Shown: piece by piece, positions 16,893 through 44,622 of the stretch
Layout of the letters: each line of letters begins with the position of its first letter
Numbering within the stretch: position 1 is the stretch's first letter
Assembly: GCA_013044475.1 (NCBI GenBank)
Contig: JABEUM010000162.1
Coordinates: forward strand, 1-53,481
Length of the DNA stretch: 53,481 nt
Source: Acidimicrobiaceae bacterium
GTDB taxonomy: Bacteria; Actinomycetota; Acidimicrobiia; Acidimicrobiales; Acidimicrobiaceae
Direction of reading: 5' to 3'
Translations under genes and position numbers: made by a program
The notes under the pieces: generated by a model
The model's input: the letters and a program-made list of their open reading frames with translations, nothing else
Told to the model about the DNA's origin: nothing
Database searches by the model: none

Positions 16893-17492
16893 CTAACCCT
16901 TGACGAACCCCCGCACTGCTTGCGCTATCAGTTGAACCGAGATTGCCGCCAGTAGCAGCCCAAAGATTCGGGTCAAAAGGGTGATTCCACCCTCTTTTAG
17001 CAGCCGGATCAGCGCCAAGGAGTACCTAAGGGTAATCCAGAGGAGGATTAGCACTAAGGCTAGGGCAGCTGCAATCGCTGAGTATCTGTCGATGGAGTGA
17101 GACTGCTTGGCGAAGACTATCGTCGCGGCGATCGCACCCGGTCCGGCAATCAGCGGTGTCCCAAGGGGCACTAGTGCTACCGACACATCTCCCACCTGGG
17201 CGTGCTTCTCGCTGTCGCCGGTCAGAAACTTGAGCGAGACCAGCAGTAGAAGCAGGCCACCAGATCCTTGCAGCGCCGGAATGGAGATGCCGAGATAGGA
17301 GAGGATCTCCTGTCCGAACAGGGCGAAAGAGGCAATCACCGCCCCAGCGACCAAGACCGCCTGGAGTGCGAGGTGTCTCTGAGCTTTAGCTTCGACGTCT
17401 TTCGTCAATGACAAAAAGATCGGGACATTTCCAAGTGGGTCCATAATGACCAGGAGCGTTACGAAAACCTGAGTGAAGAATTTAAAGTCCAA
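16893..17492 (-). CDS. MarC-family integral membrane protein
   Basis: A 199-residue protein with six hydrophobic segments typical of the MarC (UPF0056) family. Landmarks are the N-terminal VIMDPLGNVPIFLSLT and the PLGTPLIAGPGAIAATIVF segment after the third span. The family was once linked to multiple antibiotic resistance, but that link has been withdrawn and the substrate is unknown. Composition is like the core genes, so it is not part of the adjacent G+C-rich cassette. Confidence 0.9.
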   Translation of the reverse strand: MDFKFFTQVFVTLLVIMDPLGNVPIFLSLTKDVEAKAQRHLALQAVLVAGAVIASFALFGQEILSYLGISIPALQGSGGLLLLLVSLKFLTGDSEKHAQVGDVSVALVPLGTPLIAGPGAIAATIVFAKQSHSIDRYSAIAAALALVLILLWITLRYSLALIRLLKEGGITLLTRIFGLLLAAISVQLIAQAVRGFVKG

Positions 17493-18009: not shown

Positions 18010-18047
18010 GTTTGAGTCGCCTTTTGGCACTAAGGGGCGACTCAAAC
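18010..18047. terminator. Bidirectional terminator between convergent genes
   Basis: GTTTGAGTCGCC and GGCGACTCAAAC form a perfect 12-bp stem that four further pairs (two G-U) extend toward a six-base loop. The hairpin sits between the plus-strand micropeptide and the minus-strand HAD gene, and its right arm overlaps the HAD stop codon. T-runs are weak on both sides. Confidence 0.6.
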
Positions 18048-18827
18048 AGAATGACGCTTCTTTGCTGCCATGCCGCCGGCAGTCGCGGCTACCGCAACCG
18101 CTGACGTCGCAGCGAGGGCGACGAGAAATGGCCTCGCTCTTCTTGAAGGGTCTGATAGCAGTACCCGGTCTTTGAATTCCAAGGTAGGCCAATCCCGCTC
18201 CTTGGATATCTTTGCGAGGACCTTGTCCGGGTTCACGGCGTAGGGGTGGCCCACCGTCTCCAACATCGGGATGTCGGTGTAGGAGTCAGAATAGGCATAG
18301 CTCTCGTTGAGGTCTATATCATTCGCTTCGGCGAGTTCTTCCATCGCTGAGACTTTGTAAGGGCCGTAGTTGTAGAAGTCCATCTCTCCGGTGTATAGAC
18401 CTTGTTCGTTGATCGTCGGGCGCGAAGCCAGCGCGCCATCAACACCTAGGTGGTCTGCGAGCGGAGAAACAATTTCGTAGGGTGCGGCCGAGACTAAATA
18501 GACGAGTCGACCGGCCAAGCGATGCTCTTCGATTAAGTCAATTGCCTCTCGATAGAGCAAGGGCTCGACAATTTCTATTAGACCTTCAGAGATTATCTTC
18601 CTTACCAAAGATTGGTCCCACCCGGCGGTGAGCGAAAGAACCGATTTTCTCAGCTTCAGCAGTCTCTTTTCGTTGGCTCCAAGGTACCTATAGACCAGCT
18701 GGGCGTAGGCACTCCTTAGCAGGCTCCGTCTTGAGATCATCCCCTCTTTGAAGAACTTCCTTCCAAAGGCGAGCATGGAAGCCTTCGCAATTACTGTCTT
18801 GTCTAGATCGAAAAATGCTGCCTCCAT
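18042..18827 (-). CDS. HAD-IB family phosphatase with C-terminal membrane segment
   Basis: A 261-residue HAD-superfamily hydrolase. Motif I is FDLDKT at the N-terminus (nucleophilic Asp), motif II the serine in VSAAP, and motif III/IV the YAYSDSYTDIPML region, typical of the phosphoserine-phosphatase-like IB subgroup. The last 35 residues carry an Ala-rich hydrophobic stretch (PFLVALAATSAVAVAATAGG) and a basic end, so it may be tethered to the membrane. The substrate is not identified; lipid phosphate or phosphoserine-like compounds are possible. The stop lies within a hairpin shared with the micropeptide gene. Confidence 0.85.
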   Translation of the reverse strand: MEAAFFDLDKTVIAKASMLAFGRKFFKEGMISRRSLLRSAYAQLVYRYLGANEKRLLKLRKSVLSLTAGWDQSLVRKIISEGLIEIVEPLLYREAIDLIEEHRLAGRLVYLVSAAPYEIVSPLADHLGVDGALASRPTINEQGLYTGEMDFYNYGPYKVSAMEELAEANDIDLNESYAYSDSYTDIPMLETVGHPYAVNPDKVLAKISKERDWPTLEFKDRVLLSDPSRRARPFLVALAATSAVAVAATAGGMAAKKRHSV

Positions 18828-18928: not shown

Positions 18929-19591
18929 TTAACGATTGACGAGGATCTCTTTAAAGACCTCTTCGGCTTCGGTTGTAACCAATGCCAAGACTTCATCGCC
19001 GGTGCGCAGAATGGTATCACCCCGAGGCACTACTACGTTTCTAGATCTGACTACTGCGACTATGGATGCTCCTCTTGGCAGTCCTAATTGGGCGATCTCA
19101 ACGTCACATGCGGGAGAGTTCTCCGCGAGAGTAACTTCCACGAGCCGCGCGCCCGACTGCTCGAACTGAAGGAGTCTGACCAAAGTCCCAACCGATACCG
19201 CCTCCTCGACCAGCGAGCTAAGCAGATGTGGTGTCGATACCGCCACGTCGATACCCCACGTCTTGTTGAAGAGCCAGTGGTTCTTGGGGTGGTTGACCCT
19301 TGCTACGACCCTAGGGATCATGAATTCCTGTTTTGCGAGGAGTGAGATAACGAGATTGTCCTCGTCGTCACCGGTGGCTGCGACCATAACGTCGGCACCC
19401 TCTACTCCCGCCTTGGTCAACTGGGAAACCTCGCAAGCATCCGCTACGAACCATCTGACTGGGATATGTTCTTTCAGCTTCGCAACTAAGTTGGCATCCT
19501 GCTCGATCGCAAGCACGTCGTGACCAGCTTTATGCAAGTCCTCTGCGATGAAGGAGCCGACGTTTCCAGCTCCGGCTATAACTACCTTCAC
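18929..19591 (-). CDS. TrkA-type K+ uptake regulatory protein (CeoC-like)
   Basis: A 220-residue cytoplasmic regulator with an N-terminal Rossmann RCK domain (VIAGAGNVGSFIAEDL, with acidic Glu after strand 2 in LAIEQD for NAD binding) and a C-terminal TrkA-C domain from about residue 140. It gates a Trk-type potassium channel in response to nucleotide. It follows a paralogue with a 4-nt overlap, an arrangement like the mycobacterial ceoB-ceoC pair. No trkH/trkG channel gene is present in this window. Confidence 0.9.
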   Translation of the reverse strand: MKVVIAGAGNVGSFIAEDLHKAGHDVLAIEQDANLVAKLKEHIPVRWFVADACEVSQLTKAGVEGADVMVAATGDDEDNLVISLLAKQEFMIPRVVARVNHPKNHWLFNKTWGIDVAVSTPHLLSSLVEEAVSVGTLVRLLQFEQSGARLVEVTLAENSPACDVEIAQLGLPRGASIVAVVRSRNVVVPRGDTILRTGDEVLALVTTEAEEVFKEILVNR

Positions 19592-20250
19592 TTCTTCGCC
19601 CCTTCTCCATTTAGAACCTCCGCCAGCTTCGCCAAATTATTCCTCTTGACGGCTATATGAAGCAGGTCGCCCTCTTGGCCAACCGAATCATGAGTTGGTA
19701 TTGTGGACTTCTCGGCTCTTGAGATAGCGACTATGCGTATTTCTCCCTGAGCTTCGATTCCGGAAAGCCTCTTCCCTGCCCAATTATCAGGTAGTAACAC
19801 CTCGGTCAGGACTAGCTCACCGTTGGGGGTCGACCACTCTTCGGTATAGTCCTCTGGCGAGAGCCTTCGCATGACCTGATCAGTTGTCCACGTTACGGTG
19901 GCCACCGTCTGTATCCCGAGACGCTGATAGATCAGGGCCCTTCTCGGATCGTATATCCTCGCCACGACGTGTTCGATCTCGAAGTTCTCTCTAGCGATCC
20001 TCGCCGTCAAGATATTCGAGTTATCGCCGGAGGTGACCGCAGCTAGAGCATCAGCATGCTCTACTTCTGCTTCTGCCAGGGTATCGCGGTCAAAGCCGAA
20101 GCCGACCACGGTGCGGCCCCGATATGTGTCGGAGAGCCTCTTGAAGCTCCCCGCTTCCTTGTCAATCACTACCACCTTGTGGCCAGCCTGATCTAGTCGA
20201 GTCGCTAACTCTGACCCGACTCTTCCGCATCCAACAACTATTACGTGCAC
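19588..20250 (-). CDS. TrkA-type K+ uptake regulatory protein (CeoB-like)
   Basis: A 220-residue RCK protein: Rossmann motif VIVVGCGRVGSELATRL, VVVIDKE after the second strand, and a C-terminal TrkA-C domain. It is the upstream partner of the second TrkA protein, with an ATGA-type overlap, so the two are translated together and probably form one ring around a Trk channel. The GTG start at 20250 puts the Rossmann motif at residue 3. A 12-bp hairpin with a short T-run lies 118 nt upstream in the leader. Confidence 0.9.
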   Translation of the reverse strand: MHVIVVGCGRVGSELATRLDQAGHKVVVIDKEAGSFKRLSDTYRGRTVVGFGFDRDTLAEAEVEHADALAAVTSGDNSNILTARIARENFEIEHVVARIYDPRRALIYQRLGIQTVATVTWTTDQVMRRLSPEDYTEEWSTPNGELVLTEVLLPDNWAGKRLSGIEAQGEIRIVAISRAEKSTIPTHDSVGQEGDLLHIAVKRNNLAKLAEVLNGEGAKK

Positions 20251-20687: not shown

Positions 20688-23090
20688 GTGACGGATGTAA
20701 ATGAAGGGACTCCCATCGTCGAACCCGGGAGATTTTCGACCGGAGGAAGAGTCTCAAGAGCCCCGGGAGCCTTGCCAAGGTCTGGGAGTTATGAACTGCC
20801 AGAGAAGCTCTCTTATCGGCTGAAGAATAAGTTACTGGGCAAGCCGCTCGTCAACGAGTCGCTTTCTGGGGAGAGACTAGGCAAGCCGACCGCACTCGCA
20901 GTGTTGAGCTCGGACGTCATGTCGTCTTCTGCTTATGCTACGGAACAGATTCTCGTTGTTTTGATCCCGATTATCGGTGTAGCTGCATATGGGCTCGTCA
21001 TTCCGATAACTGCGCTGATCCTGATCGTGCTGGCTTTTGTTACTGCGTCCTATCTCCAAGTAATCAGGGCCTTCCCGAAGGCCGGTGGCGCTTACGTAGT
21101 GACCCGAGAGACATTCGGACTGAAGTTAGCTCAATTGGCGGCTGCGGCACTTCTGATCGATTACACCCTCACTGTGGCGGTTTCGGTATCTGCGGGGGTC
21201 GACGCTCTGACCTCGGCGGTGCCCACGCTGACTCCCTATAACGTCGAGATATCGGTCTTTTTTGTTGCGCTATTGGCCTACGGCAACCTAAGGGGTATCA
21301 GGGAAGCCGGCAAAAGTTTCGCAATTCCGACCTTCCTCTTTATCGCCAACATGGGGATAATGATTTTTCTCGGACTATTCAGGGTCATATTTGGGCACCT
21401 CCCCACCCACAGCATTCATCAGGTGGGCGCGTATCACGCCGGTTTAGGCGGGTCGGGCCTACTCATGGGGGCCTCCCTGTTCATTGTGCTACAGGCTTTT
21501 GCGAGTGGTGGCACTGCATTGACGGGTACCGAGGCGATATCTAACGGTGTCGGAATCTTCAAGTCACCTCAAGAAAGAAACGCACGCAAGACCCTTTTGG
21601 CGATGAGCTTGATTTTGGGGACAATGTTCCTTGGAGTCTCCTTATTAGCGGTCTTTACCCACGCTGTTCCGATGCTGTCAGGTACTCCGACCTTGATCTC
21701 ACAGATAGCGACCTATGTCTATGGAACTGGACCCATCGGTCGTTTCCTCTACCTGTTTCTGCAGATATCTACGACGATGATCTTGGTGTTGGCGGCCAAC
21801 ACCTCCTTCACGGGTTTCCCCTTCTTAGCCTCCTTTACCGCGGCCGACTCCTTTTTGCCGAGGCAGTTCACCAAGCGTGGGCACAGGCTCGTATTCTCCA
21901 ATGGGATTATCGTCCTGGCAGTCCTGGCGGAGATCCTGCTGATCGCGACTAAGGCCCGGGTCACCGCCTTGATAGCGATGTACGCAATCGGTGTCTTCAC
22001 CGGATTTACCATGGCCGGCGCAGGGATGGTAAAGCACCATTTAAAGGTGAAGGAACCCGGTTATAGGTGGAGAATTGCGGTCAACGGATCCGCAGCCGTC
22101 TTATCCTTCATCGTCGACTTCATCTTTGCCTACACCAAGTTCACCAGGGGAGCCTGGGTGGTCTTGGTAATGATGCCGGTATTAGTCATCCTGTTTATCA
22201 GGCTAAACAAGGTCTATGTGGAGGAAGAGAGCGAGCTCGAATCTGGAGTAGCCGCGGCTTGTGACGCTCCGATCCTCAAGAGCCATACCGTGCTCGTATT
22301 CGTCGATCGACTCGACCTAGCGACTGCCAGGGCAATTCAATATGCTCGAGCGATCAATCCAGACGACCTCAAAGCGATCCATTTTATCTTGGATGTGAGA
22401 CAGGCGAGGGAGCTAGAGGAGGAGTGGGGTAAAAGGGGTCTCGGCCGAATCGAGCTAGAGGTAATAGAGTGCCCTGATCGAAGGATACGGAGCGTTTCTT
22501 TAGAACTCGTCACCGAATACACCGCAGATGGGGAGACGGAAGTTACCGTGCTGCTGCCTAGGCGAGGGTACTCGAGGGTTTGGAGTAGGGTGCTGCATGA
22601 CCGAACTGCGGATTCCATAGCTGAGGTCGTGTCGCAAATCCCCCACGTCAACGCGACGATTATTCCATTCGAACTCGGGACGAAGAAAACTTCGCTGGTT
22701 AGGTTTAAATCCAAGAAGCCTTCCTCTGTTGAGTCCGGGCCGCAAACAGCGACTCAGCCGGCCGATGGCGAAACCGATATCCATCTCATAGTTCCTGGAG
22801 CGGTACCAATCGGGAGTGTCACCTATAGAACAAAGGCAAAGGTTGCGGGCCGCGTGAAGCTCGTCAGGGTTCAGTCGTGGGACTCGGTACCAGCCTTCGC
22901 TGCGAGGATCGAGGACTCCACCGGTGGAATTGTGCTGGTTTTTGCTGGAAGACGGGCCGTTCCAGGTATTACTCCGGGGCGAAGGCTGTTAGTTGAGGGA
23001 ATGGTTGGAGAGGTCGGCGGGCACCTCGCTATGCTCAACCCGAAGTATGAGTTTCTGGTCGGGCCCGATTCGGAAGAGGACGGCGAATAA
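20688..23090 (+). CDS. APC-superfamily permease with C-terminal OB-fold domain
   Basis: An 800-residue membrane transporter. About 12 hydrophobic segments occupy residues 80-510 (motifs SSSAYATEQIL, FPKAGGAYVVTRETFG, GTEAISNGV). A soluble USP-like or nucleotide-binding-like region follows at about 530-665 (TVLVFVDRLDLATARA onward). Residues about 695-797 look like an OB-fold: AKVAGRVKLVRV, then a DSTGG turn, GRRAVPGITPGRRLLVEG and LNPKYEF. In mycobacteria, as I recall, a separate OB-fold protein (Rv2694c) lies near the ceoB/ceoC-permease group, so this looks like a fusion. The substrate is probably an amino acid or K+-linked solute. GTG start, divergent from the TrkA pair. Confidence 0.88.
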   Translation: MTDVNEGTPIVEPGRFSTGGRVSRAPGALPRSGSYELPEKLSYRLKNKLLGKPLVNESLSGERLGKPTALAVLSSDVMSSSAYATEQILVVLIPIIGVAAYGLVIPITALILIVLAFVTASYLQVIRAFPKAGGAYVVTRETFGLKLAQLAAAALLIDYTLTVAVSVSAGVDALTSAVPTLTPYNVEISVFFVALLAYGNLRGIREAGKSFAIPTFLFIANMGIMIFLGLFRVIFGHLPTHSIHQVGAYHAGLGGSGLLMGASLFIVLQAFASGGTALTGTEAISNGVGIFKSPQERNARKTLLAMSLILGTMFLGVSLLAVFTHAVPMLSGTPTLISQIATYVYGTGPIGRFLYLFLQISTTMILVLAANTSFTGFPFLASFTAADSFLPRQFTKRGHRLVFSNGIIVLAVLAEILLIATKARVTALIAMYAIGVFTGFTMAGAGMVKHHLKVKEPGYRWRIAVNGSAAVLSFIVDFIFAYTKFTRGAWVVLVMMPVLVILFIRLNKVYVEEESELESGVAAACDAPILKSHTVLVFVDRLDLATARAIQYARAINPDDLKAIHFILDVRQARELEEEWGKRGLGRIELEVIECPDRRIRSVSLELVTEYTADGETEVTVLLPRRGYSRVWSRVLHDRTADSIAEVVSQIPHVNATIIPFELGTKKTSLVRFKSKKPSSVESGPQTATQPADGETDIHLIVPGAVPIGSVTYRTKAKVAGRVKLVRVQSWDSVPAFAARIEDSTGGIVLVFAGRRAVPGITPGRRLLVEGMVGEVGGHLAMLNPKYEFLVGPDSEEDGE

Positions 23091-43551: not shown

Positions 43552-44622
43552 ATGGAGACCAAAAGTTCGCTTCAGCTCGTTGATACCCTTCGAAGGGTAG
43601 CACCCGGAACCGGCCTGCGGGAGGGGCTCGACAGGATACTCCAAGCTCGGATGGGAGCTCTTTTAGTCATTGGTGACGGCCCTGACGTGCTCTCGATCTG
43701 CTCTGGCGGATTTCTCATCGATTCGGAGTTCTCGCCGCAGAGGCTATTTGAACTCGCAAAGATGGACGGAGCGATCATCCTGTCCGGAGACCGGATGAGG
43801 ATAGCTAGGGCCAACGTTCACCTTGTTCCAGATTCGAGTATCTCAACTTCGGAGACTGGAACTAGGCATCGCTCTGCGGAGCGAGTCGCAAAGAGTGTGC
43901 CCGTGACGGTGGTAGCGGTATCAGAAGAACTATCGGTGATTACCGTCTACCGCGATACCTTCAAGCACCAGCTCAAGCCGACCCATACCATCTTTAATCG
44001 AGCAAATCAGGCGCTTGCGACCCTTGAGCGCTACAAGGAGAGGCTCGACGGCGTCTTAGCTAACCTAGACAATCTCGAGGTGGCGAAGTCGGCCCGATTC
44101 AAAGACGTAGTCACAGTGTTGCAACGTGGCGAACTGGTTAGGAGGATTTCAGAGGAGATTGCCTGGTATCTCCTGGAACTAGGTTCTGATGGAAGACTCT
44201 TAGCGCTGCAGCTGGATGAGGTTTATCTGGGATTTGAGACCAACTACCTGTCCGTGATTCAGGATTTTTTAGAGATCACGACCAGGGATGAAGCGGCCGA
44301 ACTTGTCAGCTATCTCGCAGAAGTGCCGATGGCCGAGCTGCTGGACCTGGATCGACTTGCAGAAGGTGTCAAGAAGCATTCCTGCTGTCCGTGGATCTCT
44401 CGCTTAGACTCTCCTTCCTATCTTGAGGCGACTATGGAGTCCCGTGGTTCGCGTCAGGTGAACTCGACCCCCCAGGTTCCTCAGTACGTCAAGGATGCAT
44501 TGAAGGAGACATTTGGCGGGCTGAGGCCGATACTAGAGCCTTCAGAGGACGAACCGGAGGAGAGTGATCCTTTGGACGCGCGCTGGACAAGGGCAATAAA
44601 AGACGGGATTTATCGGTCCTAA
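43552..44622 (+). CDS. disA: DNA-integrity scanning diadenylate cyclase DisA
   Basis: Condenses two ATP to c-di-AMP. The cyclase motifs are KMDGAIIL (DGA, about residue 73) and GTRHRSAERVAK (RHR, about 105). A helical spine follows. The C-terminal helix-hairpin-helix (DNA-binding) region is poorly kept: ESDPLDARWTRAIKDG stands where I expect a VEGIGEVRARAI-like motif, so sensing of DNA branch structures may be altered. radA, the usual upstream neighbour, is absent. c-di-AMP often controls K+ uptake, and TrkA-type regulators are encoded 24 kb away; that link is inference. Confidence 0.93.
   Translation: METKSSLQLVDTLRRVAPGTGLREGLDRILQARMGALLVIGDGPDVLSICSGGFLIDSEFSPQRLFELAKMDGAIILSGDRMRIARANVHLVPDSSISTSETGTRHRSAERVAKSVPVTVVAVSEELSVITVYRDTFKHQLKPTHTIFNRANQALATLERYKERLDGVLANLDNLEVAKSARFKDVVTVLQRGELVRRISEEIAWYLLELGSDGRLLALQLDEVYLGFETNYLSVIQDFLEITTRDEAAELVSYLAEVPMAELLDLDRLAEGVKKHSCCPWISRLDSPSYLEATMESRGSRQVNSTPQVPQYVKDALKETFGGLRPILEPSEDEPEESDPLDARWTRAIKDGIYRS

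Follow-up and report, generated by a model that had tools for sequence, protein, structure and literature searches.

We report a gene in which a KimA-type K+/H+ symporter, identified as such by homology, and an OB-fold domain share one reading frame. It occupies positions 20688-23090 of the window (the whole stretch of 53,481 nucleotides of Acidimicrobiaceae DNA analysed here). Its domain architecture is conserved and genuine, and apparently undescribed: the fusion was not found in the open-licence PMC literature, either as KimA with an OB-fold or as an OB-fold with a potassium transporter and RecG. Our reading, at a probability of about 0.55, is that the symporter has its own regulatory OB subunit fused in, and that this domain acts with the neighbouring CeoB and CeoC proteins on KimA. 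Fused to KimA here, and confined to KimA-bearing genomes in the samples, the OB domain would become a candidate subunit and KimA a testable membrane partner. This suggests a job for a protein whose annotation goes no further than nucleic-acid binding: the OB domain may be a hitherto missed participant in K+ uptake, and the fusion directs attention to a possible KimA-CeoBC-OB module. The features concerned are listed below.

20688-23090, + strand: KimA-OB fusion gene (800 aa, GTG start, stop included; match to KimA 6s3k at E 6.4e-109, residues 43-641)
20886-22202, + strand: 12-TM APC/KUP membrane domain (residues ~67-505; PF13520, AA_permease_2, at 67-500)
22230-22682, + strand: KimA cytosolic (PPAT-like) domain (residues ~515-665)
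22683-22793, + strand: basic/polar linker, fast-evolving (residues ~666-702; dN/dS 0.08-0.16 over 642-702)
22794-23060, + strand: OB-fold domain (residues ~703-791, ~89 residues; best boundaries)
19588-20250, - strand: CeoB-like TrkA protein (RCK N + C; PF02254 + PF02080), divergent from KimA-OB
18929-19591, - strand: CeoC-like TrkA protein (RCK N + C; PF02254 + PF02080)

A KimA-type symporter with an OB-fold tail

Read as an open reading frame, 20688-23090 is uninterrupted to its end. The original prediction, that a permease frame stays open into a C-terminal domain, was borne out by this 800-aa frame, which has the quoted motifs AKVAGRVKLVRV, GRRAVPGITPGRRLLVEG and LNPKYEF within its last 100 residues. 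The prediction was also right that the permease belongs to the APC superfamily (PF13520) and lies beside a TrkA pair (PF02254 + PF02080). Residues 43-641 align with residues 3-583 of 6s3k, spanning both the membrane and the cytosolic domain. KimA is a K+/H+ symporter that is inhibited by c-di-AMP (PMC10284832), and the cytosolic part that precedes the OB domain, which had been called USP-like, is PPAT-like in the KimA literature (PMC10284832). The residues that coordinate K+ or contact c-di-AMP are taken here as named in that work (PMC10284832). All four K+-site residues of B. subtilis KimA (D36, Y43, T230 and Y377) are kept in the window protein (D76, Y83, T279 and Y432), as they are in all or nearly all of 120 KimA sequences. 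Amino acid uptake, which had been proposed alongside K+ uptake, is therefore the less likely of the two.

The OB fold of the tail, also predicted, was supported by profiles. On its own the window tail matched the RecG wedge (PF17191) weakly (E 0.03-0.044) and the NCBIfam RecG model NF008168 somewhat better (E 5e-4 to 7e-4), while a PDB search with this single sequence returned noise only. Among 78 aligned relatives of the domain, 69 matched PF01336 at E <= 0.1 (best 7.7e-12), 22 matched RecG_wedge and 50-56 matched NCBIfam RecG models. The family profile matched the whole domain of a solved RecG chain, 9wm0 (E 9.7e-4), and in a profile-profile comparison with 15 RecG wedges it aligned one-to-one over 89 columns (99.1% probability, E 7e-19). 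On these matches the tail family is clearly an OB fold and distant kin of the RecG wedge, and the assignment is firm because it draws on the alignment of 78 relatives rather than on the single tail. Ubiquitin matches in the OB profile search were rejected as repeat artefacts (many stretches of 2-3 bits). AlphaFold2 models of the full protein and of the tail, made from four near-identical sequences, had pLDDT values of 30 and 39; the five-stranded barrel is predicted from the profiles.

The domain has a signature of its own, R714...D743...F752-x-G754-R755-R...G760...NPxY, and the general pattern R...G...D...[FW]xGR...G...G...NP[Y] was seen in fused, adjacent and separate forms. Fused and separate OB sequences have R714, D743, F/W752, G754-R755, G760, N784-P785 and Y787 in common. 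At R714, GR754-755 and G760 they differ from the RecG wedge; that fused and stand-alone forms alike have these residues, and RecG does not, implies that a single function has been retained. The likeness to the wedge is one of fold and of whole-domain profile; the context differs, since in RecG the wedge is followed by helicase domains, whereas here the OB domain ends an 800-aa permease with no helicase match. Most of the wedge aromatics are missing in the KimA-linked domain (about 4 per domain, compared to 9.8 in RecG wedges), and the W-F-N-Q stretch of RecG is replaced by F-x-G-R-R, with a conserved GRR. With so few aromatics the domain is less likely to be a classical binder of single-stranded nucleic acid and more likely to dock to protein or to a small anionic ligand, which weakens the earlier idea of an RNA sensor. 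The mean net charge is positive, as in RecG.

The tail had also been likened to a separate mycobacterial OB-fold protein, Rv2694c. It does belong, with the same signature, to the family of the stand-alone OB proteins whose genes neighbour ceoB/ceoC elsewhere in Actinomycetota; in most Actinomycetota that have the OB protein, its gene is a separate one in the KimA-CeoB-CeoC neighbourhood. Gene order suggests that the stand-alone protein is Rv2694c-like. One of the 8 papers that list Rv2694c has it in a table, where the prediction given is unrelated, and a family member on a S. clavuligerus plasmid record (NZ_CP065252) is annotated as 'OB-fold nucleic acid binding domain-containing protein'. The two forms are alike in sequence family, in the R...D...FxGRR...NPxY pattern and in their KimA/CeoB/CeoC neighbourhood; they differ in that the stand-alone form is a separate gene, in Actinomycetes often by a DUF3159 gene, whereas here the domain is covalently joined to KimA. 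Two weak stand-alone relatives have RP in place of GRR (L139 4544-4921 in genome G233, and L140 5147-5833 in G244); the stretches fetched around them contain no KimA or CeoB/CeoC, and both genomes carry the fused gene too.

The fusion is genuine and under constraint

The window comes from a draft genome of 192 contigs, and were it the only support for the fusion, an assembly artefact would come to mind. Three records that were assembled separately (L033-L035, 95-97% identical) nevertheless have the same fused frame, which, together with the wider occurrence of the fusion, disposes of a frameshift in the reads and of a chance fusion. Among the sampled and fetched loci of the class, direct reading showed the fused ORF in 36 genomes from 15 families (f1, f2, f4, f5, f9, f15, f17, f22, f23, f26, f33, f34, f37, f51 and f52), and the carriers include a single-contig genome (G014). 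KimAs that end without an OB domain are numerous, and the tail is not a universal part of the permease family. An artefact, or a universal tail, is thus already refuted and hardly deserves further weight.

Comparison of the window with L034 and L035 gave 39 synonymous changes and one non-synonymous change in the OB domain (dN/dS 0.005). The same comparison gave a dN/dS of 0.023-0.025 for the KimA part and 0.08 for the linker; the full range for the OB domain was 0.005-0.016. By these values purifying selection on the OB domain is very strong, and it is a constrained domain behind a loose linker.

The OB domain is found only with KimA

Co-occurrence was assessed in two samples drawn within Actinomycetota, with the OB domain counted at a score of at least 54 bits, above the RecG background. 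In the class sample (247 genomes, 102 with the OB domain and 119 with a KimA relative), the OB domain was present in 102/119 KimA-positive and 0/128 KimA-negative genomes. The phylum sample gave 111/164 and 0/232, respectively. The genomes are related, and Fisher p-values for the co-occurrence therefore overstate independence. Nevertheless, the zero cells, taken with the several gene orders described below, would be difficult to account for if the OB domain and KimA were not functionally connected.

The OB domain has repeatedly been re-linked to KimA, as a separate gene, upstream of it, downstream and overlapping, or fused. The orders observed were KimA<, CeoB> CeoC>, OB<; KimA> CeoB> CeoC>, OB<; OB>KimA>; KimA>OB>; and the fusion. 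Separate OB genes lie across the CeoB/CeoC pair from KimA in members of the class and in Streptomyces/Mycobacterium-like genomes. OB genes directly upstream of KimA were found in family f54 and in one f91 genome, and those directly downstream at 15 loci, all in another frame and several with a 4-nt GTGA/ATGA overlap. In the KimA tree, 45 fused and the 15 downstream-adjacent cases fall into one clade of 63 rows (SH-aLRT 99), six switches between fused and not-fused states were counted, and the 8 upstream cases form one clade. The OB tree is poorly resolved and agrees broadly with the KimA tree.

Three fused genes come from a Mycobacteriales-like family, f76 (L214, L215 and L216, in G335, G595 and G588). 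They are nested inside the Acidimicrobiia clade and so look transferred; their flanks match Tsukamurella, Rhodococcus and Nocardia plasmid records, and no fused copy was found in plasmid records. The OB domains of L214-L216 have lost R714 and the GRR motif.

One named Streptomyces record has the order OB>, DUF3159>, <CeoC, <CeoB, KimA>, and in Actinomycetes a DUF3159 membrane protein is encoded between OB and CeoC (L178, L181, L184, L185 and L235). We considered DUF3159 as a constant fourth partner and rejected it, since the tested genomes of Acidimicrobiia and f54 either lacked it or gave weak and distant matches. It was not found in the window genome; the weak, distant matches came from a few Acidimicrobiia genomes.

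CeoB and CeoC without TrkH

In mycobacteria, CeoB and CeoC are referred to as the Trk system of K+ uptake, and RCK proteins are normally partners of Trk/Ktr channels. The locus resembles a Trk system in that two RCK proteins are encoded divergently beside a transporter, with CeoB adjoining KimA as in other loci. It differs in its membrane subunit: TrkH (PF02386) was absent from the window genome and from 15 others of the same family (16/16 searched), so that CeoB and CeoC appear to be without a Trk channel there. Among genomes picked as module carriers, TrkH was absent in 23/26. At 18/46 fused loci the fetched stretch had no Ceo match, and some of these loci lie at contig ends. The canonical c-di-AMP signature of RCK_C was not found in either TrkA protein of the window. 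A Streptomyces review reports that S. venezuelae has no TrkH/KtrB and two KimA-like proteins that are uncharacterised, and that of six RCK_C proteins only CpeA and Vnz_28520 bind c-di-AMP (PMC10117811). M. tuberculosis CeoBC papers of 2019, 2025 and 2026 do not mention KimA, TrkH or Rv2690. The window also has genes for a MarC-family membrane protein (16893-17492, - strand) and a HAD hydrolase (18042-18827, - strand), and the HAD gene follows CeoC in many fused loci.

The c-di-AMP pocket of OB-linked KimAs

Compared with B. subtilis KimA (6s3k, 8b70 and 8b71; KUP family), the window protein is alike over residues 43-641, in its K+ site, in its cytosolic domain and in the equivalents of R337 and H579. 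It differs at several pocket positions and in having about 90 further residues at its C-terminus, the OB domain. R392 aligns with the c-di-AMP-contacting R337, and H579 is kept as H637. At the other pocket positions tested (V457, P479, N580, Q581 and S582) the residues differ here (E513, F538, D638, R639 and T640), several of the contacts being made by the backbone. Most fused or adjacent KimAs, unlike most other KimAs, have the changes V457 to E, F568 to R, N580 to D and Q581 to R, H or N; in the window the remodelled residues (E513, R626, D638 and R639) are encoded at about 22224-22604. The equivalents of R337, H579 and Y118 are kept. Glu at the 457 position was also seen in some KimAs outside the fused/adjacent clade, and we therefore do not claim that the OB domain caused the pocket change. 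A disA gene (DAC + DisA linker) lies at 43552-44622 (+ strand), some 20 kb away from KimA-OB, and the organism probably makes c-di-AMP; a DAC domain was found in the genomes of 24/26 relatives.

Proposed function and alternatives

Fusion and neighbourhood show a functional linkage; regulation by the OB domain we infer. The domain would be a protein-docking or regulatory module rather than a nucleic-acid binder, positioned beneath the dimeric cytosolic domain of KimA. CeoB and CeoC, as an NAD(H)/nucleotide-sensing RCK pair, would share with it one membrane partner, KimA. As a cytosolic regulatory subunit the domain could link CeoB/CeoC to KimA or sense a ligand, coupling either the RCK pair or the state of the cytosolic domain to the opening or locking of the transporter, and fusion would fix the stoichiometry. 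A wider proposal, to which we give slightly less than even odds, is that KimA, CeoB/CeoC and the Rv2694c-type OB protein form one unrecognised K+-uptake complex of Actinomycetota, with RCK control of a KUP/APC symporter exerted through an OB adaptor that became part of the transporter in one clade.

The main competitor, possible though unlikely, is that the OB domain itself senses a small ligand, be it an ion, c-di-AMP or some other nucleotide. It would then take the place of the c-di-AMP site of KimA, or add to it, with phosphate bound by its GR(R) motif. The conserved, OB-specific GRR motif would fit such a role, as would disA in the same window, the DAC domains of 24 of the 26 relatives and the pocket that is remodelled in the OB-linked clade and B. 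subtilis-like in most other KimAs. However, Glu at position 457 beyond that clade means that remodelling need not track linkage of the OB domain in cis, and with the R337, H579 and Y118 equivalents in place c-di-AMP binding may persist in KimA. Simple neutral fusion of co-transcribed neighbours, by read-through of an overlapping pair and with no new mechanism, is improbable: adjacent and often 4-nt-overlapping KimA>OB pairs are indeed a closely related state, as the six switches indicate, but retention of the fused state across 15 families and a dN/dS near 0.01 in the window lineage speak against neutrality, and the KimA-only distribution would be left unexplained. Such an origin is, in any case, compatible with the preferred reading of a stoichiometric subunit. 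Marginally less probable still is a role in binding DNA or RNA, by which the domain would hold nucleic acid at the membrane or sense it there. Its relationship to the OB folds of tRNA_anti-codon and the RecG wedge and its RecG-like positive charge are what one would expect in that case, but the fall in aromatics from 9.8 to about 4 and the exchange of W-F-N-Q for F-x-G-R-R are not, and occurrence solely in KimA-positive genomes would be odd for a general binder.

Additional KimA copies

Second KimA copies without an OB domain occur in the window genome (G000, contig C161) and at L217-L223, and show that not every KimA needs one. The copy in the window genome (L065 3518-5494) is very divergent (39%) and sits on a long branch in the tree; its contig carries neither OB nor CeoB/CeoC. 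At L217 (G595) two sister KimAs stand in tandem, neither with an OB domain, L105 has one OB-linked and one OB-less KimA, and L131 has two fused copies. At L136 a further KimA-matching ORF overlaps the end of the fused gene.
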